In this document: piece after piece, positions 3,374 through 38,931 of the stretch | Layout: every line of letters starts with the position of its first letter | Position numbering within the stretch: the first letter of the stretch is position 1 | Assembly (NCBI RefSeq): GCF_019890615.1 | Contig: NZ_JAINVZ010000039.1 | Coordinates: 1 to 42,836 of the forward strand | Reading direction: 5' to 3' | Length of the DNA: 42,836 nucleotides | Source: Streptantibioticus parmotrematis | GTDB lineage: Bacteria > Actinomycetota > Actinomycetes > Streptomycetales > Streptomycetaceae | The notes under the pieces: generated by a model | What the model was told of the DNA's origin: nothing | Database searches by the model: none | What the model saw: the letters and a program-made list of their open reading frames with translations, nothing else | Position numbers and translations under genes: made by a program

Positions 3374-4888
3374 CTACCGGGCCGGGTGAACGGGCCCCGG
3401 GTCCGAGCCGAATACCTCGCGATAGAGGTCCTCGCCGTAGCCGGTCGGCAGGGGCTCCCCGGGCTCCAGCCTGAAGGTACGGGTACCTTCGGCAGTGCGC
3501 TGTGCGCGCAAGAACACGGCATCCTCCGAGTGCTCCGTGTGGAGACGATGCGCGAGGTCGAACAGATGGGTGACGATGACGGCCTTGACGTCGGACTCGA
3601 CCAATGCGCGCAGAATCTGGCGGGCCAGTTCCGACCCCTCGCGCTCATTGGTGGCTGCGAAGGACTCGTTGAACAGCACCATGTCGTGTGAGGACACCTG
3701 GTTCGCGATGGTGCTCATCCTCGCCAATTCCTCGTCCAGCTTCCCGCTTTCCATTTCGGCGTCCTCTTCGCGCCGATAATGGGTGAACATCTGCCCCCGC
3801 AGGTCCGTGGCGTACGATTCCGCACCCGCGAACATCCCAGCCTGTGCCATCAACTGTGCGAGGCCCAGGCTGCGCAGGAAGGTGGACTTGCCGCCTTCAT
3901 TCGCTCCGGTGACCACCACCAACCTCGCGCCGGCCGCGTCGATGTCGTTGCCGACGACTCGCTCTGTTTCCCGCAGGCTGAGGCAGACGTCGTAGAGTCC
4001 ACGAGCGATGAGGACAGGGGTACCGGGTGGATGCGGTTCAGGAGTGCAGAGTGGTTCGCCTTTGTCTCGCAGCCTCTCGTGGAGATTCAGGCAGCCCACG
4101 TAGAAGGCCAGTTCGCGAGCGAGCATCGTGAAGAAGCTCAGGATGTGGTCAGTGGAGCGGGACAAGGCGTCGGCGGCCAGAGCGATACCGCGATCCCGTA
4201 GTTCGGAGAGGGCTTGGGCACCCGCCTCGTCACGGTCGGGAACGCGGTAGCTGTAGGAGGGAGGGCTGTTGTGGGTGATGCGGTCCTTCAGAGCAGGCTT
4301 TGGGTGTGGGGTGCGCAGGGTGTAGTCGGCACCTCGACACCCAGGGCCCAGCTGTGCGCTGACCAGCACCCCGTTCTTGAACTTCAGCCGATGCAGGTGT
4401 TCATCGACGATGCCGAAGTAGTCATCGTCGAGTTCCCTCTCGACCATCTCGAAGAACTTGGTGAAGCCGGGAGAGGCCACTTGCGTGCCGTACTCGTCAC
4501 CCAGGTTGCGCAGCGCGTGGAGACGCTCGATGAACATCTCCATCACCTGCACGGCCCGGTACATCGTCGATTCAGCGCTGCGCACGAGGCTGGGCCAGAT
4601 CCTGTGCTCAGTGGCAATGGCATCGAGCGCGAGGTTGAACAGGTCCCGGGCCATGCGCGGCTGTTTGAGGCAGTCCGCGAAGACCTTTTGCCGGTGGCGC
4701 ACGGAGTCAGGGTCGGTGAGAGGACGGAACAGTACGAGCCGGCAGACACCCCGCATGAAGGAGTCCTCACCAGCCATCGCGTCGAACAGTACGTCCAGGC
4801 CGAGGTCCCGAGTGAGGTCTTCGGCCTCGGGCGGGCAGTCCGCTTCCCAGAGGAAGTCCGCGTCCTCGTGGAGCAAGAAGGCTTTCAT
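3374..4888 (-). CDS. MutS-like ATPase, second gene of the pair
   Basis: A 504-residue protein with the core/clamp and ATPase regions of the MutS superfamily but without the N-terminal mismatch-reading domain; canonical MutS is about 850 residues. Visible: a long helical part (residues 1-310) and a P-loop VVTGANEGGKSTF at about residue 330, matching the MutS pattern GxNxGGKST. Next come SGKLDEELARMSTI, corresponding to the MutS dimer signature region, and a Walker B region MVLFNESFAATN. In MutS this last motif is normally DE, so the Asp is replaced by Asn while the Glu is kept. A VIVTHLFDLAHRL segment follows. Its start overlaps the stop of the upstream MutS-like gene by 4 bp, so the two are translated together. 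A role in DNA structure recognition is inferred from the family only; the specific substrate is unknown. Confidence 0.82.
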   Translation of the reverse strand: MKAFLLHEDADFLWEADCPPEAEDLTRDLGLDVLFDAMAGEDSFMRGVCRLVLFRPLTDPDSVRHRQKVFADCLKQPRMARDLFNLALDAIATEHRIWPSLVRSAESTMYRAVQVMEMFIERLHALRNLGDEYGTQVASPGFTKFFEMVERELDDDYFGIVDEHLHRLKFKNGVLVSAQLGPGCRGADYTLRTPHPKPALKDRITHNSPPSYSYRVPDRDEAGAQALSELRDRGIALAADALSRSTDHILSFFTMLARELAFYVGCLNLHERLRDKGEPLCTPEPHPPGTPVLIARGLYDVCLSLRETERVVGNDIDAAGARLVVVTGANEGGKSTFLRSLGLAQLMAQAGMFAGAESYATDLRGQMFTHYRREEDAEMESGKLDEELARMSTIANQVSSHDMVLFNESFAATNEREGSELARQILRALVESDVKAVIVTHLFDLAHRLHTEHSEDAVFLRAQRTAEGTRTFRLEPGEPLPTGYGEDLYREVFGSDPGPVHPAR

Positions 4889-6498
4889 GACTTGTCCTTC
4901 GCCGGTCGAGAGCTGCTGCCGTCTGACGCGTCCAGCCTTTTGATCCGTTCGGCGAGCTTGTCGTGAGTGAGGCCGTACTTGTCCGCTACGGCCAGGGCGT
5001 AGGAGAGGCCGTCGGCCGGTTTGCGCACAATCCGAAAGGTCCGTCGGGCAGGGTCGTCCGGCACCACGGTGCTGACCATGCTGACGGTGGCCGGCCCGAG
5101 TTCGGACAGCTCATCCACGAATGTCACGCAGACACCCAGCGCACCGGCGTCGATGACCTGCCGAAGCACTTTTGTCCCGAGGTCGACCGCGTCGTGCAAT
5201 GTGGTGGAGGTGAATACCTCGTTCATGATGACGATGCTGTTCTCAGTGACGCGCTCCAAGATGTCATGGATGCGCACCAGGTCATCCTTGAGCTTGCCGC
5301 TGAGGTCCTTGAGGTTCTCGCCTCGCTCGAAGTGAGTGAAGACGGCGTCGCACATCAGCAGGCCGGCTTCACGTCCTGGCACTGGGCAGCCGAGCGCGGC
5401 CAGATGGTGCAACTGCCCGATGGTACGGGCGAACGTGGTCTTGCCACCCTGGTTCGGCCCTGAGACCACCAGGATCCGTTCGGGGGCCTCGAGACGGAAG
5501 TCGTTCGGCACGACGGTGGTCCGCGTCCGGGCCAGGCGGTCAGCCAGCACCACGTCGAAGACCCCCTGGCCCTCCACTGTCGTGGCTCCCGCCATCATTC
5601 GCGGGTAGCAGAAGTCCAGTGCGGCTTCTTTGAGCGGCACGAGGGTGTCGAGGTAGGCGAGGTAGAACTGGGCCTCACGATCGAACGTGGCGATGGCCTC
5701 GGCCACGAAGTCGCCGTGTCGTTCGGCGTAGGCGTCCAGTTCCTGGAACTCCTCGGGGAAGAGCAACGCCACCCGGTCGAGCACAGCGGCCTCGACGGAG
5801 TTCAGCTCCACCGGCTCCCGGAACCGGACGGAGTGGTCCTGGGTCTGTCCCTGCGAGAACTTCTCGAAGCCGGCGACCACTTCGGCGCCGTAGTCCGGTT
5901 CGTCGTCGTAACGCGTCACCTTGACCTTGCCACCCGTGATCGTCAGACAGTAGCGGACCGCCGTGAGACGTTCTTGCGTCGTCGCCGTCTCCTCCAGCAA
6001 CGTGGTGTAGGCGGTACCGCGTTCGTACTCGACGAGGTGGTCCCGGAAGGCGCGGAGCCCCCGTGAGCCGAGGTCGGCTTCTTTCAGCGTCTGCACCAGA
6101 TGGGAAACGGCCTGCCGATAGGAGTCCACTGATCGCAGCAGCCAACTCTGCTGCTGGTAGCGGTGCCGAAGCCGGGCGCCCTGCCGTAGGCGGGCTCGTG
6201 TCTCACGCATCCGCTCAGCAAAGGCCTTCACGCCCTCGGCGAGCGCGGGATTCTCCAAGTCGCGGAAGACCTCCTGGCGGTAGAGCACGGCGTCCGCCGT
6301 GCGCAACCGTCGCCGGTACAAGGGCAGCAGGTCGTACCCAGGGCGATCTTCGGTGACGACCTCGAAGAGCTGGTCCAGGTTGAGGTCGGTGAAGTAGTCC
6401 GGGTCATGCGTCTCAGTGCTGCCCGCACCGCCGGCCCCCCGTGTGCTCGGGCTCTCGTCAGCGGTCTCGAACAGGATGCTGGGAAAGGTCTCGACCAT
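4885..6498 (-). CDS. MutS-like ATPase, first gene of the pair
   Basis: A 537-residue MutS-superfamily ATPase, again lacking the mismatch-binding domain. The N-terminal 50 residues are Ser/Gly-rich and acidic. Residues 60-330 form the helical core/clamp. The ATPase shows VVSGPNQGGKTTFARTIGQL, then LSGKLKDDLVRIHDIL and IVIMNEVFTSTT, where the Walker B Asp is Asn as in its partner. A short conserved FVDELSELGPATVSMVS block follows. It is the first gene of a two-gene operon with the 504-residue homologue, and the two share about the same architecture, which suggests a heterodimer like eukaryotic MSH pairs. Canonical MutS is absent from most actinobacteria, so this pair is not expected to be the ordinary mismatch repair protein. 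Confidence 0.82.
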   Translation of the reverse strand: MVETFPSILFETADESPSTRGAGGAGSTETHDPDYFTDLNLDQLFEVVTEDRPGYDLLPLYRRRLRTADAVLYRQEVFRDLENPALAEGVKAFAERMRETRARLRQGARLRHRYQQQSWLLRSVDSYRQAVSHLVQTLKEADLGSRGLRAFRDHLVEYERGTAYTTLLEETATTQERLTAVRYCLTITGGKVKVTRYDDEPDYGAEVVAGFEKFSQGQTQDHSVRFREPVELNSVEAAVLDRVALLFPEEFQELDAYAERHGDFVAEAIATFDREAQFYLAYLDTLVPLKEAALDFCYPRMMAGATTVEGQGVFDVVLADRLARTRTTVVPNDFRLEAPERILVVSGPNQGGKTTFARTIGQLHHLAALGCPVPGREAGLLMCDAVFTHFERGENLKDLSGKLKDDLVRIHDILERVTENSIVIMNEVFTSTTLHDAVDLGTKVLRQVIDAGALGVCVTFVDELSELGPATVSMVSTVVPDDPARRTFRIVRKPADGLSYALAVADKYGLTHDKLAERIKRLDASDGSSSRPAKDKS

Positions 6499-6754
6499 CT
6501 GCGCCTCCAGGCTCAGTCCACGCGTACCCGCGAGACCGCGGTATCACGCGTGGAGGCGCGCCAAGGCACTCCTGGTAAGTGCTCCGTTCTGGGAACCCAC
6601 CGGAAGCGCCTTGGCTCTCACCCGGGGCGGTCGGGGGGACGTTCACACGTCAGTGGTAAGTCGGCCGTCGCGGCGATGTCACTCCGCTGGGGCACTGAAG
6701 GAGGTGGCATCGACGTGGTCGTCGCCCGTTCACGGTACGGCTGACGAGAGTGTG

Positions 6755-7327
6755 TCAGCCGAGGGCTTCGTGCCCGGCGACCACAAGCAGCAGTAGCCCG
6801 CCCACCAAGGGAGCGTACGTTCCCACCAGCTTCGAGAGGAGGCCGATCCCCAGTACGTTGCCCAGCCAGATCATCACGTAGCCCCACGCGGTGATGGCGA
6901 TCACGATCGACCACAGCGGCGCCGAGGAGGCAACGGTGGCTCCGAAGCCGTTGGCGACGTTGGTGATGGACAGGCCAAGCCCGAGGAGCACCCCTTGGCG
7001 CCAGCCGGGGTGGGGAAGAGACACATCCCGTTTCTGCTTCCGGAGTCGCGGGCGCACGTAGGCGGAGTACCAGTAGATGAGGCCCACACAGGCCAGCACA
7101 GCGCTCGCTGTCCAACGTGCCGCCGTTTGAGGAAAGTAGCCTGCAGTCGCGTCACCGACGTAGGCACCCAGAAACGCGCTGGCGAAGCCGATGGCGTTCA
7201 CGAGGGCGTTGATCCGGTGGGGAAATTTGATTTTCGCGGTGCCGTAGGCGACTCCGATACCGGAGTTGTCGAAGTTGGTGCCGATGCCGATCAGGTTGGC
7301 GGTGATGAATCCGTTCACCCAGCTCAT
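6755..7327 (-). CDS. MntP/YtaF-like manganese efflux-type membrane protein
   Basis: A 190-residue polytopic protein of the MntP/YtaF (UPF0059-like) type, thought to export Mn(II). Two halves each carry the diagnostic pattern. The first half has NLIGIGTNFDNSGIGVAYGTAKI followed by a helix with NAIGFASAFLGAYVGDATAGY. The second half has a helix with GLGLSITNVANGFGATVAS and a C-terminal GLLLLVVAGHEALG. The conserved Asp and Asn residues in the first and fourth helices are present. About six membrane segments are visible, separated by a basic loop (RPRLRKQKRD). It is 256 bases upstream of the MutS-like operon in the same direction and probably independently transcribed; no manganese riboswitch was recognised upstream. 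Confidence 0.7.
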   Translation of the reverse strand: MSWVNGFITANLIGIGTNFDNSGIGVAYGTAKIKFPHRINALVNAIGFASAFLGAYVGDATAGYFPQTAARWTASAVLACVGLIYWYSAYVRPRLRKQKRDVSLPHPGWRQGVLLGLGLSITNVANGFGATVASSAPLWSIVIAITAWGYVMIWLGNVLGIGLLSKLVGTYAPLVGGLLLLVVAGHEALG

Positions 7328-10208: not shown

Positions 10209-10411
10209 GCTGAAGACGCCTGTCTTGAGAGCCGCCTACGGCAGGGAGGCCTTACGGCGGAGCGGAGGAGCGGGGGGATGGGATTTCGCGATGGGCGGTT
10301 TGCTGAGCACGGTGGCGAGGTACGCAGCTAAGTGGCGGTGGGGCCCGCCTTCAACCGCGGAATGTCCGCCAACGGTCCCTGCACTCGTGATTCGGCGTGC
10401 AGGAGGACGGG

Positions 10412-12007
10412 TTGGTCTCGGGCCGGCAGCAGCGAACAGAACTCATCAGGACGCTCGACGAGCTCGGGCAGCTTGACGGCACCCAGGGGACCGCGACAGC
10501 AGGAAGACTGCTCCGCCGACTGACGACAGACTGCCTGCGGGTCCTGGTCGTCGGCGAGGAGGAACGGGGCAGAGGAAGCCTCGTCGAGGCGCTCGTCGGG
10601 CGGGCTGCGGTGCTCACGAACGCCTCGACTTCCACGTCGATATCGGCCACGGTGCCGGTGGGCTCCCCCGAGGGCGTCAGCGGGAGTGTGGAGCTGATCG
10701 TCGCGCCGCCCGCCGACTCCGTCTACGACGGCGCACAGGCAAGCCAGGCGTGGGCGGCTGTGGACGTCGTGATCGTCGTGCTCACCGCGGACTTCCCTCT
10801 GTCGGCCACCGAACGCTCACGGCTGACCAAGGCCGGCCAAGCCGCGGTACCCGCGCTGGTCGTGCTGAACAAGGCAGACCGCCTTGGCGCCGAGGAGTTG
10901 GCCGAGACGGTCTTGGTCGCCAGATCCTGCGTGGAAGCCGCCTACGGTCGTGAACTGGCGGTCTACCCGGTCTCAGCCGAGATCGCGATGAGCGGCGGCG
11001 GCCGCGACACCCTCTCTGCCCTTCGCTGGTCCGCTTTCATGACAGCGTTCCACGAGAAGGTCCCGGCGGATCATGGTCGGCAACTGACCGACGCCGTCGC
11101 TGCCCAGGCGTATCACGTGATCAGCACGCTCCTGGACGAGACCCGACTGCTGCTTCGGGCCCATGCGCTGCGAGAGTCCGGCAACGGGGCACAGGTTCGC
11201 CACTTTCAGGCGCAGTTGACGAGAATCCGTGCGTCTCGCCGGAATGTCACCGAGGCCATCACCGAGGAGGTCAGGCGCCTGTCCGAGGAGACGGACGCGG
11301 CAGCGAGAACGCAGGCCCAGCGCCTGCGAGTAACGATCGAAAGGTCCTTGGACACACGGCTGTCCGGAGACTGGCAGGACCTGCCGACGGGAGAGCTGGA
11401 CGAACAAGGCTTGGCCTTTCTCACGCGCACGGTCGCTGAGGGTACGAACTCCTGGTGCCGTCGGCAGGCCGTACGGCTCCAAGAAGCCATGCACGAGCTG
11501 GCGCGGGCGGCCGAGGCAGGCCAGGAGTCCCAGTTGACGACGGTGAGAGCAGCGGCCCGAGACCTACTGGACCTGGATCTGAGGATTTCTGCCGAGCCGA
11601 TCGAGCCGGACGACAACGGCTGGTTCGCCTACTCGCCACCGGATACGAACAGTCGGCCGAACTTGCTGGCTTACGTGGCCCGAGGCCATCTTCCCGGACG
11701 GCTCGGACGTGGCCACGTCTCACGTCATCTGAGCGACTTGGCCCGTGACTTGACGGAGCAACAGGTAGGGCGGGCTCGGTCCAGCCTTCGACACCAACTC
11801 TCCGAGGCCGCGCAGAACCTCTCCCAGGCCCTTCTTCGACGCGTCACCGCCTGCGTGGCAAGTCTGGAGGACGCTCTGACGGAAGCCGCTCACATAGCCG
11901 CGCTGCCGAAATCCCAGGCCGCCACGCGACTGACCGCGGCCGAAAGACGCGAGAAGGCGCTGGGCGAACTCGCCCAGCGCATCCAGGCGCTCCGCACACG
12001 CTCCTGA
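10412..12007 (+). CDS. Dynamin-like GTPase-fold protein with degenerate P-loop
   Basis: About 531 residues with a GTPase-like N-terminal domain and long helices after it, as in bacterial dynamin-like proteins. The P-loop position reads VVGEEERGRGSLVEALVG, where the usual GK[ST] is GRG, so nucleotide binding may be weak or lost. The base-specificity motif is intact as VLNKADRL, and VVIVVLTADFPLSATE resembles the switch region. From about residue 240 the protein is mostly helical and coiled coil (RIRASRRNVTEAITEEVRRL; RREKALGELAQRIQALRTR). I chose the TTG at 10412 because AGGAGG lies five bases before it; a GTG at 10397 is in frame but lies before that site. It is 188 bases after the kinase-like gene, same direction. 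A membrane-remodelling or scaffold role is inference. Confidence 0.65.
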   Translation: MVSGRQQRTELIRTLDELGQLDGTQGTATAGRLLRRLTTDCLRVLVVGEEERGRGSLVEALVGRAAVLTNASTSTSISATVPVGSPEGVSGSVELIVAPPADSVYDGAQASQAWAAVDVVIVVLTADFPLSATERSRLTKAGQAAVPALVVLNKADRLGAEELAETVLVARSCVEAAYGRELAVYPVSAEIAMSGGGRDTLSALRWSAFMTAFHEKVPADHGRQLTDAVAAQAYHVISTLLDETRLLLRAHALRESGNGAQVRHFQAQLTRIRASRRNVTEAITEEVRRLSEETDAAARTQAQRLRVTIERSLDTRLSGDWQDLPTGELDEQGLAFLTRTVAEGTNSWCRRQAVRLQEAMHELARAAEAGQESQLTTVRAAARDLLDLDLRISAEPIEPDDNGWFAYSPPDTNSRPNLLAYVARGHLPGRLGRGHVSRHLSDLARDLTEQQVGRARSSLRHQLSEAAQNLSQALLRRVTACVASLEDALTEAAHIAALPKSQAATRLTAAERREKALGELAQRIQALRTRS

Positions 12008-12089
12008 CCGCGTGTTGCTCTTCGCGCCAGGCACGGACGCGCACTCATACCGACGACTCGAAAGAGACCGAGGAAAGACAGGAACAGCC

Positions 12090-14180
12090 GTGACCACAGA
12101 CGAATCGCGAGACGCCAAGAACCGGCAGCTGGATGGCTTCCGGGCCCATCCCGAGCACAGCGCCCTCACCACGGACCAGGGGGTGCGTATCGACGACACC
12201 GACAACGCGCTGCGCGCCGGGACACGTGGGCCGACGTTGCTCGAGGACTTCCACAACCGGGAGAAGATCACCCACTTCGACCACGAACGCATCCCCGAGA
12301 GGGTTGTGCACGCCCGCGGTGCCGGCGCTTACGGCTACTTCGAGGCCTACGAGTCACTGGCCGAGTACACGTGTGCCGACTTCCTCGGCGAGGCCGGGCG
12401 GCGGACGCCGGTGTTCGTGCGCTTCTCCACGGTGCAAGGCCCACGGGGCTCGGCCGACACCGTGCGAGACGTGCGCGGTTTCGCCACCAAGTTCTACACC
12501 CGGGAGGGCAACTACGACCTTGTCGGAAACAACTTTCCCGTGTTCTTCGTCCAGGACGCGGTCAAGTTCCCGGACTTCGTGCACGCGGTGAAGATGGAAC
12601 CGGACAGCGAGATGCCCACCGGCGCCTCCGCTCACGACACGTTCTGGGATTTCTGCTCGCTTCAGCCTGAGTCCACCCACATGCTGATGTGGCTGATGTC
12701 GGACCGCGCCATCCCCCGCAGCTACCGCATGATGCAGGGCTTCGGGGTGCACACCTTCCGCTTCGTCACCGACGACGGTCGCGGCACGTTGGTGAAGTTC
12801 CACTGGAGGCCGAAACTCGGCGTGCACTCACTGGTGTGGGACGAGGCTCAGATCGCGGCGGGCCGAGACCCTGACTTCAACCGGCGTGACCTGTGGGAGG
12901 CCATCGAGTCCGGCGACCACCCCGAATGGGAGCTGGGTGTGCAGTTGGTACCAGAGGGGGACGAGCACGCCTTCGGCTTCGACCTGCTGGACGCAACGAA
13001 GATCATCCCCGAGGAGCAGGTGCCGGTGCGTCCGATCGGACGCATGGTGCTCGATCGGAACCCGCAGAACTTCTTCGCCGAGACCGAGCAGGTCGCCTTC
13101 CACACGGCCAACGTGGTGCCGGGCATCGACTTCACCAACGACCCGCTGCTCCAGGGCCGCAACTTCTCCTACCTCGACACCCAACTGATCCGGCTCGGCG
13201 GCCCCAACTTCAGCCAGATTCCCATCAATCGGCCCCTCGCGGAGGTGCACCACAATCACCGCGACGGCTACGGCCAGCAGGTCATTCACCCAGGTACCAA
13301 CTACTTTCCCAACTCGCTGGGAGGCGGATGCCCAGCGCACGCCGGGGCGGGCGGCGGTGCCGGAGTGTTCCGGCACTACCAGGAGCGAATCGACGGCGAG
13401 AAGATCCGCGTACGCAGCGCCAGCTTCGACGACCATTACAGCCAGGCCGCTTTGTTCTGGAACAGCATGGCCGACTGGGAAAGGCGCCACATCGTGGAAG
13501 CGTTCCGCTTCGAGCTGGGCAAGGTCGAATCCGCCGCTGTGCAACAGCGGATGGTGGACAACCTCGGCAACGTCGACCCCGAGCTCGCCGCTCAAGTGGC
13601 CGACGGCCTCGGCATGACTGCACCTACCCAGTCGCGACGTGGGAGCGAGGAAGTCTCGCCGGCCCTCAGCCAGGAGAACCTGCGCGCTCCCGGTATCTGC
13701 ACCCGCAAGGTGGCGGTGCTGGTGGCGGAAGGCACAGACGCAGCCCAGACGGATGCCATGCGGGAGCGACTGGCTGACGAAGGGGCGGTTGTGGAGGTGT
13801 TGGCTGAGAAGGGCGGCATCGTGGGCGGCGCCGACGGCACCGCGATCGAAGTGGACCGCGCCCTGCGCACGGCGGCCTCGGTACTCTACGACGCGGTCGC
13901 GGTACCGGGAGGAGCCGAAGCGGTCGAAACCTTGGAGGCCGACCCTGCCGCGGTGCGGTTCGTGGCCGAGGCTTACCGGCACGGGAAACCGTTGGCCATG
14001 CTGGGCGAAGCCAGCAGGCTCATGCACGCCGCCGGGCTCCCTGTGACCGTCGTGGACGATCCCGCCCCGAGCCAGGGTCTATGCGTCGGCGCGGGTGAGG
14101 TCGCCGACAGGGTCACCAGGGAGTTCGTCTCCGCCATTGAGCAACACCGCTTTCCCGTGCGGCCCGGTATGTTCGGCTGA
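12090..14180 (+). CDS. katE: Large-subunit catalase, HPII (KatE) type
   Basis: A 696-residue monofunctional haem catalase of clade 2. It breaks down hydrogen peroxide in the cytoplasm. Residues seen are the distal His74 in [14 protein letters not shown], the distal Asn147 in [14 protein letters not shown], and the proximal Tyr in [17 protein letters not shown]. From about residue 545 there is the extra C-terminal domain of large catalases, which has a flavodoxin/class I glutamine amidotransferase-like fold ([33 protein letters not shown]). The GTG at 12090 has AGGAAC upstream; the frame is open earlier, but homologues begin near here with [18 protein letters not shown]. It follows the dynamin-like gene by about 80 bases and may be cotranscribed or have its own promoter. 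Confidence 0.95.
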
Positions 14181-14244: not shown

Positions 14245-14502
14245 TCAGCGTCGCCGTTTGCCACGCTCACCGGACCACAGCCCGCTCTCCTTGCCCGGGG
14301 GCCAGGGAGGGACCACCCCGTCGGGCAAGAGCAGGAACCATTGGCCGCAGTCGGCGAGGAGGACCGCTTCGAGGCGGTCCGGCGGGTTCCAGCGCCAATT
14401 ACCAGGATACCTCCAGCGGCTTCGGGCAGAAGGGCGTTGCCTCGTGCCTCGAGCAGCCGGACCGACCGCACGCCCCCGGGCGCCGCAGTCTCCCGACCTC
14501 AT
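14245..14502 (-). CDS. Possible small protein or remnant, unknown
   Basis: A minus-strand frame whose C-terminal half looks protein-like: NWRWNPPDRLEAVLLADCGQ, then WFLLLPDGVVPPWPPGKES. The first half is Arg-rich and poorly biased, so the start at 14502 is uncertain and the reading may be only the tail of a decayed gene. It lies in a 395-base gap between the catalase and DUF211 genes. An inverted repeat at 14361-14380 (GGACCGC, six bases, GCGGTCC) lies within it. I do not recognise the family. Confidence 0.3.
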   Translation of the reverse strand: MRSGDCGARGRAVGPAARGTRQRPSARSRWRYPGNWRWNPPDRLEAVLLADCGQWFLLLPDGVVPPWPPGKESGLWSGERGKRRR

Positions 14503-14575: not shown

Positions 14576-14860
14576 ATGCCGATCCGCCGTCTCGTCCTCG
14601 ACATCGACAAGACCGTCCAAGAACCCGATCTCGTCCTTCTGGCCCGTACGATCGAGGCGTCGGAGGGCGTTGACGCCGTGAGTGTCATCGTCACCGACAT
14701 CGACATCGAGACGGTCGGAACGGACGTCACCGTGGAGGGACCGGACATCAATGTCGACGTGCTGATCCATTCCATCGAGCACATCGGAGCCGTCGTGCAC
14801 AGCATTGACCAGGTGGTCGCCGGTGACCGCCTGATCGAGGGCAGGCTGCGGCGGCGGTGA
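14576..14860 (+). CDS. DUF211 family protein
   Basis: A 94-residue protein with the DUF211 pattern. It begins MPIRRLVLDIDKTVQEPDLV, has a ferredoxin-like beta-alpha-beta core (LARTIEASEGVDAVSVIVTDIDIETVGTDVTVEGPDI), and ends with the conserved IEHIGAVVHSIDQVVAGDRL. The family is common in archaea, where its members are small ferredoxin-fold proteins that assemble in rings; function is not established. The ATG at 14576 has GGAGG four bases upstream. It is transcribed alone, downstream of the catalase gene. The match is strong across the whole length, so the family assignment is secure but the role is not. Confidence 0.85.
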   Translation: MPIRRLVLDIDKTVQEPDLVLLARTIEASEGVDAVSVIVTDIDIETVGTDVTVEGPDINVDVLIHSIEHIGAVVHSIDQVVAGDRLIEGRLRRR

Positions 14861-15227
14861 GCCGCGAGACGGAGAAGCGGGCGGGACGGCCGGACCTCGG
14901 CTCCCCCGTCGCAAAGAGCGGCTCACAGGAGGCATACACACGGACGAGGCCGGGCAGACTCCTGGCGGCGATGAGGCTCGCCGTTACCCGCACCAGCCGG
15001 TGCTGATGGCCTCTACGAGGAACGCCGCAAAGTCGAATGGGCTCTGCGGCCGATCACCGTGGAGGCCATTCGTATGTACCCGCACACGCCATTCGGTGTG
15101 CAGATAGCATCCACCTCTCGACACCCTGGGCGCGCGGCATCCTTCTGTGCCCCGCAATGGCGAGGGCTCACTGCCCTCCTTCGGGACCAAGCAGTACGCC
15201 CGATACACGTGGATGCCCGCGCGATGC

Positions 15228-15617
15228 ATGCGCTGGGTGGCTGAGGTGGCTGCCACCGAGTACGAAGACGCGGCAGCGGCGATAGTCAGGGTTGCGCAAT
15301 GCACGATTGTGAACGCCAAGTGGCATCTGTGTCAGGAGTGGGCGATCGCCCGTTTGGCCAAGCACCGTGGGCTCGCCTGCGTAGCGCTCTTCCCCGACCA
15401 CCCGGTCGTCCAGCTCATTGCATACAACGGGCAGTTGCTCGGCCGCGCCCGCTGGCACCGAACCGGGACCACCGCTCGTTGGATCGCTACACAGGAACCA
15501 ATCGCACACGAAATCGGCAACTACCGTTCCCTGCACGGTGCGGCACGAGCACTGGCCCAGGCAGCCGGCATGCCACACCGCGTGGTCACCTGCCTGCCGG
15601 ATCAAGCGTGGGAGTGA
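15228..15617 (+). CDS. Unknown protein, paralogue of the gene at 17354
   Basis: About 129 residues if the ATG at 15228 is used; the frame is open back to 15147. The C-terminal half (PVVQLIAYNGQLLGRARWHR, then RWIATQE, then IGNYRSLHGAARALAQAAG) aligns along its length with the minus-strand product at 17354 (DAIQLVTYDGEYLGSIRLAG, SWVAVPEG, AGTFHSPKAAAKALGLAAD). The fold looks like a small beta-sheet followed by a helix that may be a partial Pfam-type repeat. The N-terminal half contains two cysteines not shared with the paralogue. Function unknown. A 16-base palindrome at 15651-15666 (CCGCCCGGCCGGGCGG) lies just after the stop. Confidence 0.55.
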   Translation: MRWVAEVAATEYEDAAAAIVRVAQCTIVNAKWHLCQEWAIARLAKHRGLACVALFPDHPVVQLIAYNGQLLGRARWHRTGTTARWIATQEPIAHEIGNYRSLHGAARALAQAAGMPHRVVTCLPDQAWE

Positions 15618-16781: not shown

Positions 16782-17047
16782 CCGGTTCCCGCCTCTCAGC
16801 AGGGACCGTTGGCGGCCTCCGGCCGCGGTTCGGCGGTGAGCCCCTCCACCGTCTTGGACACCACGGTAAGCGTGCCCCACGGTGCCTTCCAGCCGAAGGC
16901 GTACGAACGGGCCCATTGGCCGGCTCCTCACGCCTTCGTGCCCATGTACACCTGTAGCCCGTAGGCGGCTGCTGACGCGGCAGCGATCGCTGCGACGAGG
17001 CAGGGTCGTGGCCGCGGCTCCTCGTCCGTTCGGACATCCGGTGTGCC
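16782..17047. other. Upstream region of the ABC ATPase, with a possible tiny membrane peptide
   Basis: This interval holds the presumed promoter of the minus-strand ATPase gene. A short minus-strand frame (17056-16928, 42 residues, GTG start) encodes an acidic/Pro-Arg start followed by one hydrophobic stretch, CLVAAIAAASAAAYGLQVYM. It could be a small membrane peptide or the tail of a decayed gene; support is weak. Confidence 0.25.
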
Positions 17048-17353: not shown

Positions 17354-17665
17354 TCACACCGCCTTGTCCGCCGCGAGGCCGAGCGCCTTGGCGGCTGCCT
17401 TGGGGCTGTGGAAAGTGCCTGCCGTCATCAGTTGTCCTTCAGGCACCGCGACCCAGCTCGCCTGCCGGGCAGGTCCGCCGGCCAAGCGGATCGATCCGAG
17501 GTACTCACCGTCGTACGTGACGAGCTGGATCGCGTCGCTGTGCGGGTACAGCTTGCTGCGCACCAGCCCTTGGGTGTCATGAGCCTTGGCGAGTACCGAA
17601 TCGCGCTGTGCGGCCGCCGCGTCCGCCCGACTCTTCGCCGCATGGGTAGTGGCTCCGCTGGTCAT
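17354..17665 (-). CDS. Unknown protein, paralogue of the gene at 15228
   Basis: A 103-residue protein starting at ATG 17665 with a Ser/Ala/Lys-rich helix (MTSGATTHAAKSRADAAAAQ) and then AIQLVTYDGEYLGSIRLAGG, ASWVAVPEGQLMTAGTFHS and PKAAAKALGLAADKAV. The second half is similar, in order and spacing, to the protein encoded at 15228, so these are members of one small family on opposite strands flanking the orphan ABC ATPase. The final helix resembles those used for DNA or protein contacts, but no known motif is present. The open frame extends upstream to 17908 without a convincing coding character. Confidence 0.65.
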   Translation of the reverse strand: MTSGATTHAAKSRADAAAAQRDSVLAKAHDTQGLVRSKLYPHSDAIQLVTYDGEYLGSIRLAGGPARQASWVAVPEGQLMTAGTFHSPKAAAKALGLAADKAV

Positions 17666-17959
17666 GACCGCCTCCCAGGATCTCGCGCCTGCTGGGTAGG
17701 ACGCGGCCGACCTCGCGGGACCGCCTCGGGCGTCCGATGAGGTGCGCCCTGCGGCCGGGCCACGACCTACACCCCCACCTACGGGCGGTCCAGGAGCTAC
17801 CGCCGCCCGGGGCAGGCCAGGAACCATCGGCCTTACGGCGTGTCGACCGCTCATCCGCGGTCTGGTGGGATCCACCACCACTTCCAGGATAGCCGCGCAG
17901 ACGACCACGCGTGCCGTGCTGCGACGGCGGTCTTCGTACGGATCCAGCGATGGCGCTGC

Positions 17960-18196
17960 TCAGCCATGCACCCCGGCACCCTTCACGTAGGACTCGTAGC
18001 CCTCCTCCTCCAACTGCTCGGCAAGTTCAGCACCGCCCGATTCCACGATCTTTCCATCGGCGAAAACGTGGACGTAGTCGGGCTGGATGTAGCGCAGGAT
18101 GCGGGTGTAGTGCGTGATCAGCAGCGCAGCCACCCGGCCGGTGGAGCGGACCCGGTTGATGCCTTCCGAGACGATGCGCAGCGCGTCGATGCTCAG
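17960..18196 (-). pseudogene. sufC: Remnant of sufC (Fe-S assembly ATPase), 3' end only
   Basis: Seventy-eight codons match the C-terminus of SufC, the ATPase of the SUF iron-sulfur assembly machine: [20 protein letters not shown], then [40 protein letters not shown] and EGYESYVK. The switch His (ITHY) is present, but Walker A, the signature motif and Walker B, which together need about 170 upstream residues, are missing. Upstream of 18196 the reading frame continues with unrelated, poorly biased sequence. The break is exactly before the LDIDALR block that follows Walker B in intact SufC. No other suf gene is nearby. This is a truncated copy, probably brought in or left by recombination; the functional suf operon should be elsewhere. 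Confidence 0.8.
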
Positions 18197-18570
18197 CCAG
18201 GGGCTGTGAGTAACCGGCCGGCGAATCCCGCCTCCAGGGAGCAGCATCTCGGCAGAAGGGGTCTGGCTGCGTTCAAGGCCTGCGTAGGGGTGACTGCCTC
18301 GACGACGAGAGCCGTCGACCACCCGTAGTTCCGTCAGCGCGACGGCTACGTGTGTTGTCCCGGCGTGGCGGGCGGCGGATGCCCTGCCGCGAGGGCACGC
18401 GGGTTTACGCTCCTGGTGGGCGTGCGGTCCGCGGGCCCTGGGCGGTGGGGCTCGCCTGCCTCGAACCTCGGCATCTGATGCCGACAACGGTCCCTACTCG
18501 TCAGCACGCGCTCGTCGCGGGCGCAGGACGAGTGGGAGCGTGACATGCGAACGTTCAGGCAGGCGGTGAC
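18197..18570. other. Gene-free stretch
   Basis: About 370 bases between the sufC remnant and the divergent kinase-like gene. No frame with convincing coding character and no recognised RNA. The last 60 bases should hold the promoter of the kinase-like/GH57 gene pair. Confidence 0.35.
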
Positions 18571-22019: not shown

Positions 22020-22554
22020 GTCAGCGGGCCCGCAGGCTCAACGCGCACCCCGCAGTGGGCTGTCCCGCGCGAGGCGATGACGTGACGATGAGCATGCCTG
22101 TCCCCTGTCTCCGTTGGACAGGGACCGTTGGCGGTGTTCCTACCGCGGATATCGGCGAGCCCCACCGCCGTTCGCGCTGCGTATACCTATCACAATGATA
22201 GGAGCTCGCGAGGGAAACCGGCCCGGCCGCGACGGTGGATGTCCTCTTTGTCGGTCATGCGCGACCTACGGCTGGAGGGGCGCGGGAAGCAGCGCGCCCG
22301 CGCCGAAACGTGGGTGCAGACGGGCAAAGGCGAACACTTCTGTGAAGTGATTCATTTCAGGACACCTTGGCGGGGCGGCCGCACGTCCCCCCGCTCGGCG
22401 CCTAGACTACGCCCAGGCGATGGAGCCCGCCTGGCCCCCGGGATTCGGGGCTGCCGAACTGCCGTTGAGTTGCTGATGGCGCCTGTCACTTGCTGTGGCC
22501 TTGAGGCCACCACTGTGCCGGGAGTGCCTCGTGCCTGGATTCGCCCCTTCAGCA
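22020..22554. other. Gene-free stretch with one palindrome
   Basis: About 535 bases between the divergent DUF3040 and repeat-HTH genes. No coding frame is convincing. It holds a perfect inverted repeat, CCTATCA-CAA-TGATAGG, at 22186-22202, in a locally AT-richer patch; this could be an operator. Confidence 0.4.
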
Positions 22555-23397: not shown

Positions 23398-23690
23398 AAA
23401 GCGGGCCAGGCAAGTGGAACAAGCAGCCTGCGGCGCCTTGACCTGATGGGTGGCGAAGCTGTTCACTCTCCCCAGGTGATGGACCCCACCCGGGTATTCG
23501 AACCCGAACCGCCCCCCACGGGCTGATGGCTCCTGACAGTGTTCGCCCATGTCGGTCGGCGCACGTCGGAGGTGCCCATGGATCCATCCCAGCCCGCCCT
23601 CGCTCTCTTCACCCCAGGGCTCGGCGCGCCTCGTACGACGACCGCCTCCTCGCTCCCGGTCGCTCACCGCGCCGGAACGGGGGCCGGCCG

Positions 23691-23894: not shown

Positions 23895-24031
23895 CCCTCT
23901 CCTGCGCGGGTCGGCATGCCCCGCAGCGGCGCCGTCCGCACAATGGATTCCACAGAGGTGATGGGGCTCACCTGACGAACCGCGGTCAGCCGCTGACGGT
24001 CCCTGGGAGATGCGACCAGGGAGAGGTGTGC

Positions 24032-24973
24032 ATGCGATCTGCCGGTCCCCGTGTGGTGGCATCGCGCCCAGCCGTGGCATTCGCCCTACTCCTGGTGGCC
24101 GCGCTCGGCATGGCCGCGCGCCCCACCGCGCCGCGCCGGACACACGCTCTCGACGGCACCGCGCTCGGGGTGGTGGCGATGGGGCTCGCCGTGGTCCAGA
24201 TGGGACTGCTGGTGTGGCTGGTGCTGTCCGGACGGCGCTGGCGCAGGCGCCGGGACGACGAGAACGAACGGCTGCCTCAGCCGGTGCCCATGAGTCGTTG
24301 GGCACGGCCGACGGCGCTGCTGGGCGTTCTCGCGATGCTGGTGGTGCCGTGGGTTGTCCTGGTGGCGATCGGCCGACGTACGGGTGCCGGAGGCAACGCG
24401 GTGGTGCCACGACGGCCGGTCTCGTCGCCCGTACCCACGGCCGACGCCTCCCCGGCTCCCCGTATCCCCTCGGGGCACCATGTGGCCTCGGCGCAGGAGA
24501 CCGGGTGGCTGCTGTGGATCCTGGCGTTGAGCGCGGTTGTGGTGGTGTCGGTGGTGGTCGGATTCCTGTGGTCGCACGGCTGGAGGAACGTCCATGTGGA
24601 GGGCGCCCCGGGTCGGCGGGGCGCCCGATCGGGTTTGCTGACTCCGGCAGTTGACGGCACCGCGGCGCCCACGGGGGATCGGTCCGATCCCCGCCAGGCC
24701 GTCATCGCCTGCTGGAGCGTGCTGCGCGACGAAGCGGCCCGGCGCGGCGCACGCCCCTCCCCCGCCGACACCCCGGAGCGGCTGTTGCGCCGAGCCGGGG
24801 ACGTGGGACTCGCAGGCGGGGAGGCGGGACCGCGGCTGGCCGGCCTGTTCCGCGAGGCACGTTTCAGCACGCATCCCATCACCGAGGAGCACCGCGTGCG
24901 CGCCGAGGACGCTCTGCGCCGAATCACCAGGCATCACGCCGACGTGGACGTGGATGGGCACGATGCCCTGTGA
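24032..24973 (+). CDS. DUF4129 domain membrane protein, first gene of MoxR-type operon
   Basis: A 313-residue protein with an N-terminal hydrophobic segment (VAFALLLVAALGMAA), a second (LGVVAMGLAVVQMGLLVWLVL), a third (TALLGVLAMLVVPWVVLVAIG) and a fourth (TGWLLWILALSAVVVVSVVVGFLW). A C-terminal cytoplasmic DUF4129 domain follows: DPRQAVIACWSVLRDEAARR, TPERLLRRAG and ARFSTHPITEEHRVRAEDAL. This domain is found with MoxR, DUF58 and transglutaminase-like proteins. The ATG at 24032 has GGGAGAGG upstream. The next gene overlaps it by 4 bp. Together the five genes form a membrane-linked module, probably for maturing or folding secreted or envelope proteins by analogy with MoxR systems; the target is unknown. 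Confidence 0.85.
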   Translation: MRSAGPRVVASRPAVAFALLLVAALGMAARPTAPRRTHALDGTALGVVAMGLAVVQMGLLVWLVLSGRRWRRRRDDENERLPQPVPMSRWARPTALLGVLAMLVVPWVVLVAIGRRTGAGGNAVVPRRPVSSPVPTADASPAPRIPSGHHVASAQETGWLLWILALSAVVVVSVVVGFLWSHGWRNVHVEGAPGRRGARSGLLTPAVDGTAAPTGDRSDPRQAVIACWSVLRDEAARRGARPSPADTPERLLRRAGDVGLAGGEAGPRLAGLFREARFSTHPITEEHRVRAEDALRRITRHHADVDVDGHDAL

Positions 24974-38610: not shown

Positions 38611-38704
38611 ACGGATCCGTAAAGACGCGACCAGGATTTTCTTGCCAAGAGCTTGCAACTGGGACCACTTGTCAGTGGCTCGATCCGGCCCCTAGTCTTG
38701 CCGG

Positions 38705-38885
38705 GCCGTGGTGTTCGGGAAGACCGGTGGGATACCGGAGCGGCCCTCGCCACTGTGATCAGGGAGTCACCGCGTCACTCCGCTCCGGCCCGGCCGGAGC
38801 GGAACGACAAGCCACTGGGCGCCTCGGCGTTCGGGAAGGCGGACGCGGCGGCGTTCGACCTGTCAGCCAGGAGACCGGCCACGGC
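38705..38885 (+). ncRNA. Cobalamin (B12) riboswitch
   Basis: Leader RNA between alaS and the NiCoT gene with the conserved cobalamin-riboswitch blocks in order. A closing helix is formed by GCCGTGG (38705-38711) and CCACGGC (38879-38885). Then come GGGAAGACCGGTGGGATACC and CGGAGCGGCCCTCGCCACTG, the AAGCCACTGGGCGCC arm, GGGAAGGCGGACGCGGCGG, and the B12 box AGCCAGGAGACCGGCC (38865-38880). Binding of adenosylcobalamin to such leaders lowers expression of the gene downstream, here by masking translation or ending transcription. The distance to the NiCoT start is about 46 bases. Confidence 0.9.
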
Positions 38886-38931
38886 ACCGCATGACGAACT
38901 GTCCACGAGGTGCTGGAGAGGCTGCCCCGAC

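Follow-up and report, generated by a model that had tools for sequence, protein, structure and literature searches.

A MutS4-type ATPase pair with Walker B asparagines and its linkage to fluoride-response genes

Two overlapping genes in a 42,836-nucleotide stretch of the Streptantibioticus parmotrematis genome (contig NZ_JAINVZ010000039.1, positions 1 to 42,836; the whole stretch analysed is hereafter called the window) encode a pair of MutS-like ATPases, designated A (MutS4A-like subunit) and B (MutS4B-like subunit). With a probability of about 0.55, we regard them as a pair of the MutS4A/MutS4B type, part of a set of fluoride-resistance genes that has spread horizontally, acting on nucleic acid as an asymmetric, slow clamp. 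The fluoride context of MutS4 pairs, which an initial annotation of this DNA did not mention, is well supported by sequence comparison. In many relatives, although not in all, linkage was shown to fluoride riboswitches, crcB, enolase, pyrophosphatase, universal stress proteins, a hydrogenase-4/complex-I-like complex and dynamin-like GTPases.

Results

Sequence and fold of the pair

Gene A (4885..6498, minus strand) codes for 537 amino acids and gene B (3374..4888, minus strand) for 504, each protein consisting of a MutS core and an ATPase domain. The genes share the four bases at 4885..4888 (minus strand), which read ATGA on the coding strand and join the stop of A to the start of B, as the initial annotation had described. 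MutS_V is the sole Pfam family over its cut-off in A (3.9e-17) and in B (2.9e-17), with two additional AAA matches under the Pfam cut-off in B. The P-loops are GPNQGGKTT in A and GANEGGKST in B, and the Walker B segments are IMNEVF (N426) and LFNESF (N407), respectively, in agreement with the GxNxGGK[ST]T, MNEV and FNES motifs first read from the sequence. In printed alignments, Asn426 of A falls on the Walker B Asp of Taq MutS and Asn407 of B on that of two MutS2 chains. The site of the conserved MutS His after Walker B, which we take to be His728 in E. coli, is occupied by Phe460 in A and by His441 in B.

The predicted models (mean predicted local distance difference test score 87.5 for A and 86.1 for B) resemble E. 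coli MutS (3zlj). Residues 19-505 of A match residues 154-776 of that protein (Z 28.6, root mean squared deviation (RMSD) 4.2, 394 aligned), and residues 15-488 of B match residues 260-776 (Z 28.1, RMSD 5.1, 379 aligned). The lever tip of B is basic, with a median net charge of +5. Core, lever and ATPase fold are thus shared with E. coli MutS/MutS1; unlike it, the window proteins have no mismatch-reading domain and carry Asn for Asp, and their best NCBIfam MutS1 score, 88.9 bits, does not reach the cut-offs of 480 and 641.7 bits. With MutS2 they share a similar core without the mismatch-reading domain, but MutS2 has the Asp and the window proteins end soon after the ATPase domain (504 and 537 amino acids); their scores of 68.7 and 71.3 bits are under the mutS2 model cut-off of 400 bits. 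Both models align with MutS and with MutS2, beginning at the core, so that the early claim of a missing mismatch-reading domain holds for both proteins, on the Pfam matches as well as on the model ranges. We take this lack, next to a MutS ATPase domain, to be a defining trait of MutS4.

In the passages of Kim 2017 (PMC5742357, citing Lin 2007) that describe the MutS4 subfamily, MutS4A and MutS4B are adjacent and the stop of A overlaps the start of B. These passages also describe an M. yongonense island which holds enolase, an NADH dehydrogenase complex, a hydrogenase subunit and MutS4AB. The window pair is likewise adjacent, with an overlapping stop and start and a patchy spread, and enolase and complex-I/hydrogenase-type neighbours are found at several of the loci described below. 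Because of this pair signature and the shared neighbours, the pair is provisionally filed as MutS4, by comparison with the published description. The distinct subfamily proposed in the initial annotation is supported and already has a name, MutS4A/MutS4B. Among the roles suggested in that annotation, recombination agrees with one gain-of-function experiment in Kim 2017; mobile-element defence is not supported by PADLOC, in which four proteins, those of the window pair and of a second pair in the same genome, had no match stronger than 24.2 bits, and the weak matches obtained lie around the P-loop.

This second pair (L005/L111 on contig C56; L and C numbers denote loci and contigs) is 57% and 62% identical to that of the window. 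It adjoins a hydrogenase-4-like complex, with enolase farther off and aptamers present. A canonical MutS was looked for across the S. parmotrematis genome with PF00488, which matches at four places (E ≤ 0.001), all of them inside the two MutS4 pairs.

Distribution, pairing and conserved residues

Relatives were gathered from named genome contigs and from genomes of the phylum and order of the window, with further relatives from searches centred on a Nocardia (its order), a Martelella (its class), a Clostridiales bin (its class) and a Nitrososphaerales bin (its phylum); every genome count includes the genome at the search centre. The search of the window's phylum covered 396 genomes, 15 of which have a long B match (E < 1e-100); the other 44 of the 59 matches are short ones to the ATPase domain. 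At E ≤ 1e-40, B relatives are present in 3/245 genomes of the window's order (its own included), 7/249 of the Nocardia order, 1/289 of the Martelella class, 26/291 of the Clostridiales-bin class (five of them close) and 5/151 of the Nitrososphaerales-bin phylum. The presence of the pair is patchy.

Fifty loci were counted, after the removal of L055 (gene coordinates equal to those of L041), L138 (partial) and L128 (a contig as long as that of L052, with one shared gene 100% identical). Near-copy rows remain (L102-L104, L044/L045, L053/L054 and L109/L110), so that the rows counted do not stand for independent events. A adjoins B at 49 of the 50 loci, in a frameshifted form in L041, and the sole exception to pairing is L132, a B fragment for which no A was found. 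Both genes and the ATGA overlap are also present in all five plasmid stretches examined. The initial annotation had made its proposal of an obligate heterodimer depend on co-occurrence in other genomes, and this near-constant pairing is consistent with such a heterodimer. A natural A-B fusion in Pannonibacter (L041, 7146-10325, a frame of 1059 amino acids) was considered and rejected, as A's C-terminal portion lies in another frame there. The same A-into-B frameshift occurs in L055, an alphaproteobacterial bin record.

The alignments comprise 48 A rows and 49 B rows (L041 is excluded from both and L132 has no A). The Walker B Asn is found in all 48 A rows and in 46 of the 49 B rows, and is therefore conserved across the family. 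Asp in homologues, which the initial annotation named as counter-evidence, is confined to three distant B rows (L134-L136, from the archaeal-phylum search) whose A subunits keep the Asn; they may represent an older state. The Glu after the Asn and the P-loop Lys are invariant in both alignments. At the His position after Walker B, 45 of the 49 B rows have His and 45 of the 48 A rows have Phe, the exceptions being distant rows plus L038. With His in most B rows and Phe in most A rows, the pair is asymmetric by sequence, and the altered hydrolysis suggested at first is plausible from these residues. The pairs of two Lachnospiraceae loci, L053 and L054 (about 30% identity), carry the Asn in A as well as in B and lack an aptamer; in L054, a family-A DNA polymerase gene lies near the pair.

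Fluoride riboswitches at MutS4 loci

The neighbours that recur beside the pair are the hydrogenase-4/complex-I-like complex, enolase, dynamin-like GTPases and small CrcB-like proteins, the last recognized by eye. They suggested a fluoride regulon, which was then searched for with Rfam. Matches to RF01734 over its gathering threshold of 34 bits were found at many MutS4 loci other than the window. A fluoride-aptamer model, R1, was built from 38 sequences, 37 of them RF01734 matches over gathering and one below it (10325 in the window); four of the 38 come from the window and match by construction. The label aptamer was given to R1 matches of at least 20 bits, and weaker ones (about 9 to 17 bits, for example at L042, L048 and L052) were dropped.

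At 25 of the 50 loci an aptamer lies on the same strand within 900 nucleotides upstream of A (at L037, only about 890 nucleotides of contig precede A), and at five, including the window, aptamers are found elsewhere. No R1 aptamer was found in the stretches around three other MutS-like genes, at L113 (KamC) and at L114 and L115 (KamC-profile matches under the cut-off). The density of matches in the S. parmotrematis genome (17 in 7.4 Mb) would place one there by chance at 0.0011 per locus. Among aptamer-bearing loci alone, the upstream position is occupied in 24 of 29, against about 2.4 of 29 expected from the local density of 89 matches in 515,907 bases. The records with an aptamer upstream of A are labelled Actinomycetota, Bacillota, Pseudomonadota, Thermotogota and archaea, several being metagenome bins.

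Within the S. parmotrematis genome, seven of the 17 R1 matches (E ≤ 0.001) are on the window contig, six near the second pair, two on contig C78 and two, both weak, elsewhere, which puts 13 of the 17 at the window contig or near the second pair; the total is a lower bound, since that scan missed four window matches. A quick tree, built without bootstrap and containing one very long branch (L137), places the window pair in a group of four with L111 (the genome's second pair), L096 and L097, all from Streptomycetaceae (Shimodaira–Hasegawa-like approximate likelihood ratio test 100). In these three relatives, an aptamer is located 45-89 nucleotides upstream of A.

A link between mutS and fluoride is also in print, since Weinberg 2010 (PMC2864571) places mutS and formate hydrogen lyase genes downstream of the crcB/fluoride RNA motif. 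The passages concerned name neither MutS4, nor a pair, nor the Asn, and the window pair differs from that regulon in having no adjacent aptamer.

Pairs on plasmids

B relatives (E ≤ 1e-40) occur in 48 plasmid records (L139-L143 and 43 more), which include 18 from Klebsiella, six from Citrobacter, five from Enterobacter and two from Salmonella. R1 matches were obtained on all five stretches whose neighbourhoods were examined (in L139 the best reaches 30.8 bits), and on three of them the pair lies beside crcB, enolase or pyrophosphatase genes. On the E. coli plasmid p027_SK3a the order is universal stress protein, MutS, MutS, P-type ATPase, crcB, phosphoglycerate mutase, enolase, universal stress protein and DHHA2 protein, with a chloride-channel family protein farther on. 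The crcB-eno operon beside the pair has the gene content and order of the E. cloacae FRM set (ppaC, uspA, eno, gpmA, crcB and a cation-ATPase); according to passages of Liu 2017 (PMC5533749), the FRM operon is induced by fluoride and needed for resistance. Among 5,426 E. coli genomes, the pair was found at near identity only on p027_SK3a.

The Rhodococcus plasmid carries the pair, an enolase gene and two crcB genes, and the Burkholderia plasmid carries enolases, pyrophosphatases, the pair, a dynamin gene and complex-I-like genes. The Alicyclobacillus and Mycobacterium branderi stretches contain no crcB, enolase or pyrophosphatase gene; complex-I-like genes are present in both. The M. branderi island resembles that of M. 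yongonense and comprises complex-I-like and hydrogenase genes, a universal stress protein and the pair, to which the family profiles give 697 bits (A) and 694 bits (B).

Aptamers and genes of the window

Searched without filters, R1 gives 11 matches in the window at E < 1e-5, between 10.3 and 24.2 kb, and the next only at E 0.27. They span 14 kb (10 of full length and one partial) and mostly precede different genes, forming a dense riboswitch cluster. RF01734 exceeds its gathering threshold at three of these sites, all on the plus strand and all in the R1 training set: 14958..15022 (37.5 bits; R1 58 bits), 22407..22492 (34.7 bits; R1 48.4 bits) and 23466..23542 (37.3 bits; R1 56 bits), the last before a DUF2180 gene. 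The fourth training sequence from the window is a variant aptamer at 10325..10388 (plus strand; RF01734 27 bits, below gathering; R1 42.7 bits) that precedes a dynamin-like GTPase gene (10397..12007, plus strand). This GTPase is related to those adjoining MutS4 pairs in L044 and L096, and a long catalase gene (12012..14180, plus strand) lies directly 3' of it. A further aptamer (23948..24012, plus strand, R1 48 bits) is found before a run of DUF4129, MoxR and DUF58 genes. Variant aptamers precede an ABC-transporter ATPase gene (16793..16859, minus strand, R1 36 bits), the genes of an APH-like kinase and a GH57 protein (18432..18503, plus strand, R1 33.4 bits) and a DUF3040 gene (22112..22178, minus strand, R1 32.7 bits). 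The remainder are two weak variant matches on the minus strand, at 14325..14405 (R1 27.5 bits) and 17811..17888 (R1 23.3 bits), and a partial aptamer-like match at 24175..24220 (plus strand, R1 19.9 bits, model positions 10-47 only).

In the variants, the long-range A-U pair of the aptamer is replaced by G-C. Among 89 rows there are 75 with A-U, 12 with G-C, one with another combination and one with a gap; the R1 search model left these columns unpaired. The G-C form is found in the window at 10325, 16793, 17811, 18432 and 22112 and also in L096, L097, L111 and L036, and the match at 14325 is the single exception, with C-C.

Besides its clustered aptamers, the window has a second mark of a fluoride island in that seven of its 20 tested genes recur at other MutS4 loci. 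The membrane protein at 2660 and the DUF211 protein (14576..14860, plus strand) are found at all of L111, L096 and L097; the YtaF-like, SpoIIE and DUF2180 proteins, a protein of 156 amino acids and the GTPase are found at one or two of them. Recurrence beyond these relatives extends to L143 for the YtaF-like protein, L101 for DUF211 and L045 for the GTPase. The YtaF-like protein, a membrane protein of 190 amino acids encoded upstream of A (6755..7327, minus strand) and scoring under its family cut-off, is 54% identical to a protein encoded upstream of A on the Alicyclobacillus plasmid. No crcB is present in the window, and the two crcB matches of the genome are on contig C16. Regarding the start of A, a stable hairpin (6486..6586, minus strand, −48.6 kcal/mol, z −2.31, three of 200 shuffles as low) covers most of the preceding GGAGG (Shine-Dalgarno) sequence.

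Two small proteins (15147-15617, plus strand, and 17354-17665, minus strand) are alike by eye, have no Pfam match and are each encoded downstream of an aptamer match; the former recurs at L111 and L096. The end of the frame at 17960-18487 (minus strand), also without a Pfam match, resembles by eye the tail of a SufC-kind ABC ATPase and is perhaps a remnant. Finally, a cobalamin riboswitch is found at 38692-38897 (plus strand, 67.1 bits).

Discussion

The window genes probably form a MutS4-type clamp whose working can be pictured as follows. Fluoride would raise expression of the pair through riboswitches, directly in relatives and, for the window copy, indirectly or not at all, and A and B would close into an asymmetric heterodimeric clamp. 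The Walker B Asp of MutS helps to hold Mg2+. Weaker Mg2+ coordination, together with the defective A site, would give slow hydrolysis and a long-lived ATP state, and with hydrolysis this slow it is ATP binding, not fast turnover, that is proposed to set the state of the clamp. The basic lever tip of B would touch nucleic acid, and from this contact we propose that the clamp keeps hold of, or remodels, junctions in DNA (or RNA), which may pile up when fluoride blocks phosphoryl transfer. A clamp on junctions would also agree with the one functional report found, an increase in homologous recombination: in the passages of Kim 2017 (PMC5742357) on M. smegmatis, MutS4 gain of function led to the donor change in 27 of 36 sequenced colonies, against 5 of 16.

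Several observations weigh against this reading. An aptamer of at least 20 bits is absent from 20 of the 50 loci, so that the family is not tied to fluoride alone. A fluoride riboswitch leader precedes A in the closest relatives L111, L096 and L097 but not in the window, where the nearest aptamer is 3.8 kb from A; Rfam at a lax threshold and R1 with filters off found none upstream of A, not even a degenerate one, which leaves direct fluoride control of the window copy unsupported. Thirteen of the 20 tested window genes, the catalase gene included, were not found at the other MutS4 loci. Regarding nucleic-acid contact, the lever tip of A is not basic (median charge −0.5) and both proteins are acidic as a whole (median net charges −13.5 and −10). 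The recombination result comes from one study in one host, and neither "fluoride" nor "Walker" occurs in the main text of that study (Kim 2017, PMC5742357). The main text of Liu 2017 (PMC5533749) has 0 occurrences of mutS, so that linkage to the resistance set is no proof that the pair aids survival in fluoride.

A nucleic-acid clamp is favoured because of the basic tip of B and the recombination report. The main rival, which we judge unlikely, is a protein reactivase, in which the MutS4 clamp pulls apart enzyme complexes locked by magnesium fluoride, in the manner of KamC (NF052383), a MutS-like protein annotated as the reactivase of lysine 5,6-aminomutase. The neighbours on plasmids would suit it, since enolase, pyrophosphatase and phosphoglycerate mutase are fluoride-sensitive enzymes or spare copies of them. 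The MutS core fold is moreover known in other roles, as in B. subtilis MutS2 on collided ribosomes, one of the fold matches of the models. KamC shares a MutS core of about 500 amino acids with the window proteins and appears among their NCBIfam matches below cut-off; at 63.2 bits (B) and 39.6 bits (A) against a cut-off of 300, identity with KamB/KamC is rejected. The KamC member L076, which is over the cut-off (316 bits), has the canonical Asp (LLIDEF), and by eye the gene before it is not MutS-like. The alpha subunit of lysine 5,6-aminomutase was not found in the S. parmotrematis genome, in a search that gave no control match either. Finally, the neighbouring enzymes vary from locus to locus, so that no single client stands out.

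An accessory factor that promotes recombination or integration of its own island, with the fluoride link a result of hitch-hiking on mobile islands, would account for the 48 plasmid records, for a spread as patchy as three of 245 genomes in the window's order and for the recombination rise reported in the Kim 2017 (PMC5742357) passages. We consider it improbable, as aptamers upstream of A at half of the loci, across several phyla, are hard to square with hitch-hiking. It is very improbable that the change from Asp to Asn is a hardening of the ATPase which prevents trapping of ADP-magnesium-fluoride and keeps the pair active, for although Asn is present in every aptamer-bearing row (A 28/28, B 29/29), it is largely retained in aptamer-less rows too (A 20/20, B 17/20), so that the change does not follow the fluoride linkage and an adaptation to fluoride is disfavoured.

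The subfamily and the mutS–fluoride link are each in print already, as far as the passages of the papers cited above go. An account joining MutS4, the fluoride riboswitch and resistance islands, or describing the Asn pattern, was not found among the literature matches listed, a set which mostly leaves out subscription papers. The association of the MutS4 clamp with fluoride genes links these three literatures. The natural Asn pairs provide a native comparison for the E. coli MutS D693N mutant, the subject named in the title of structure 3k0s, in which residue 693 is probably the matching one. In a bolder form of the clamp reading, which we hold tentatively and on balance doubt, MutS4AB would be a machine dedicated to the fluoride response: an ATP-gated clamp whose two Walker B sites are naturally crippled, with the His missing from one of them in addition, and which through ATP binding rather than turnover would retain or let go of complexes, whether of nucleic acid or of protein, that magnesium fluoride has arrested. 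If this were true, the reported recombination effect would be an indirect view of fluoride tolerance. With the fluoride context, a MutS subfamily that one paper examined as a driver of recombination gains a physiological setting that can be tested by adding fluoride.

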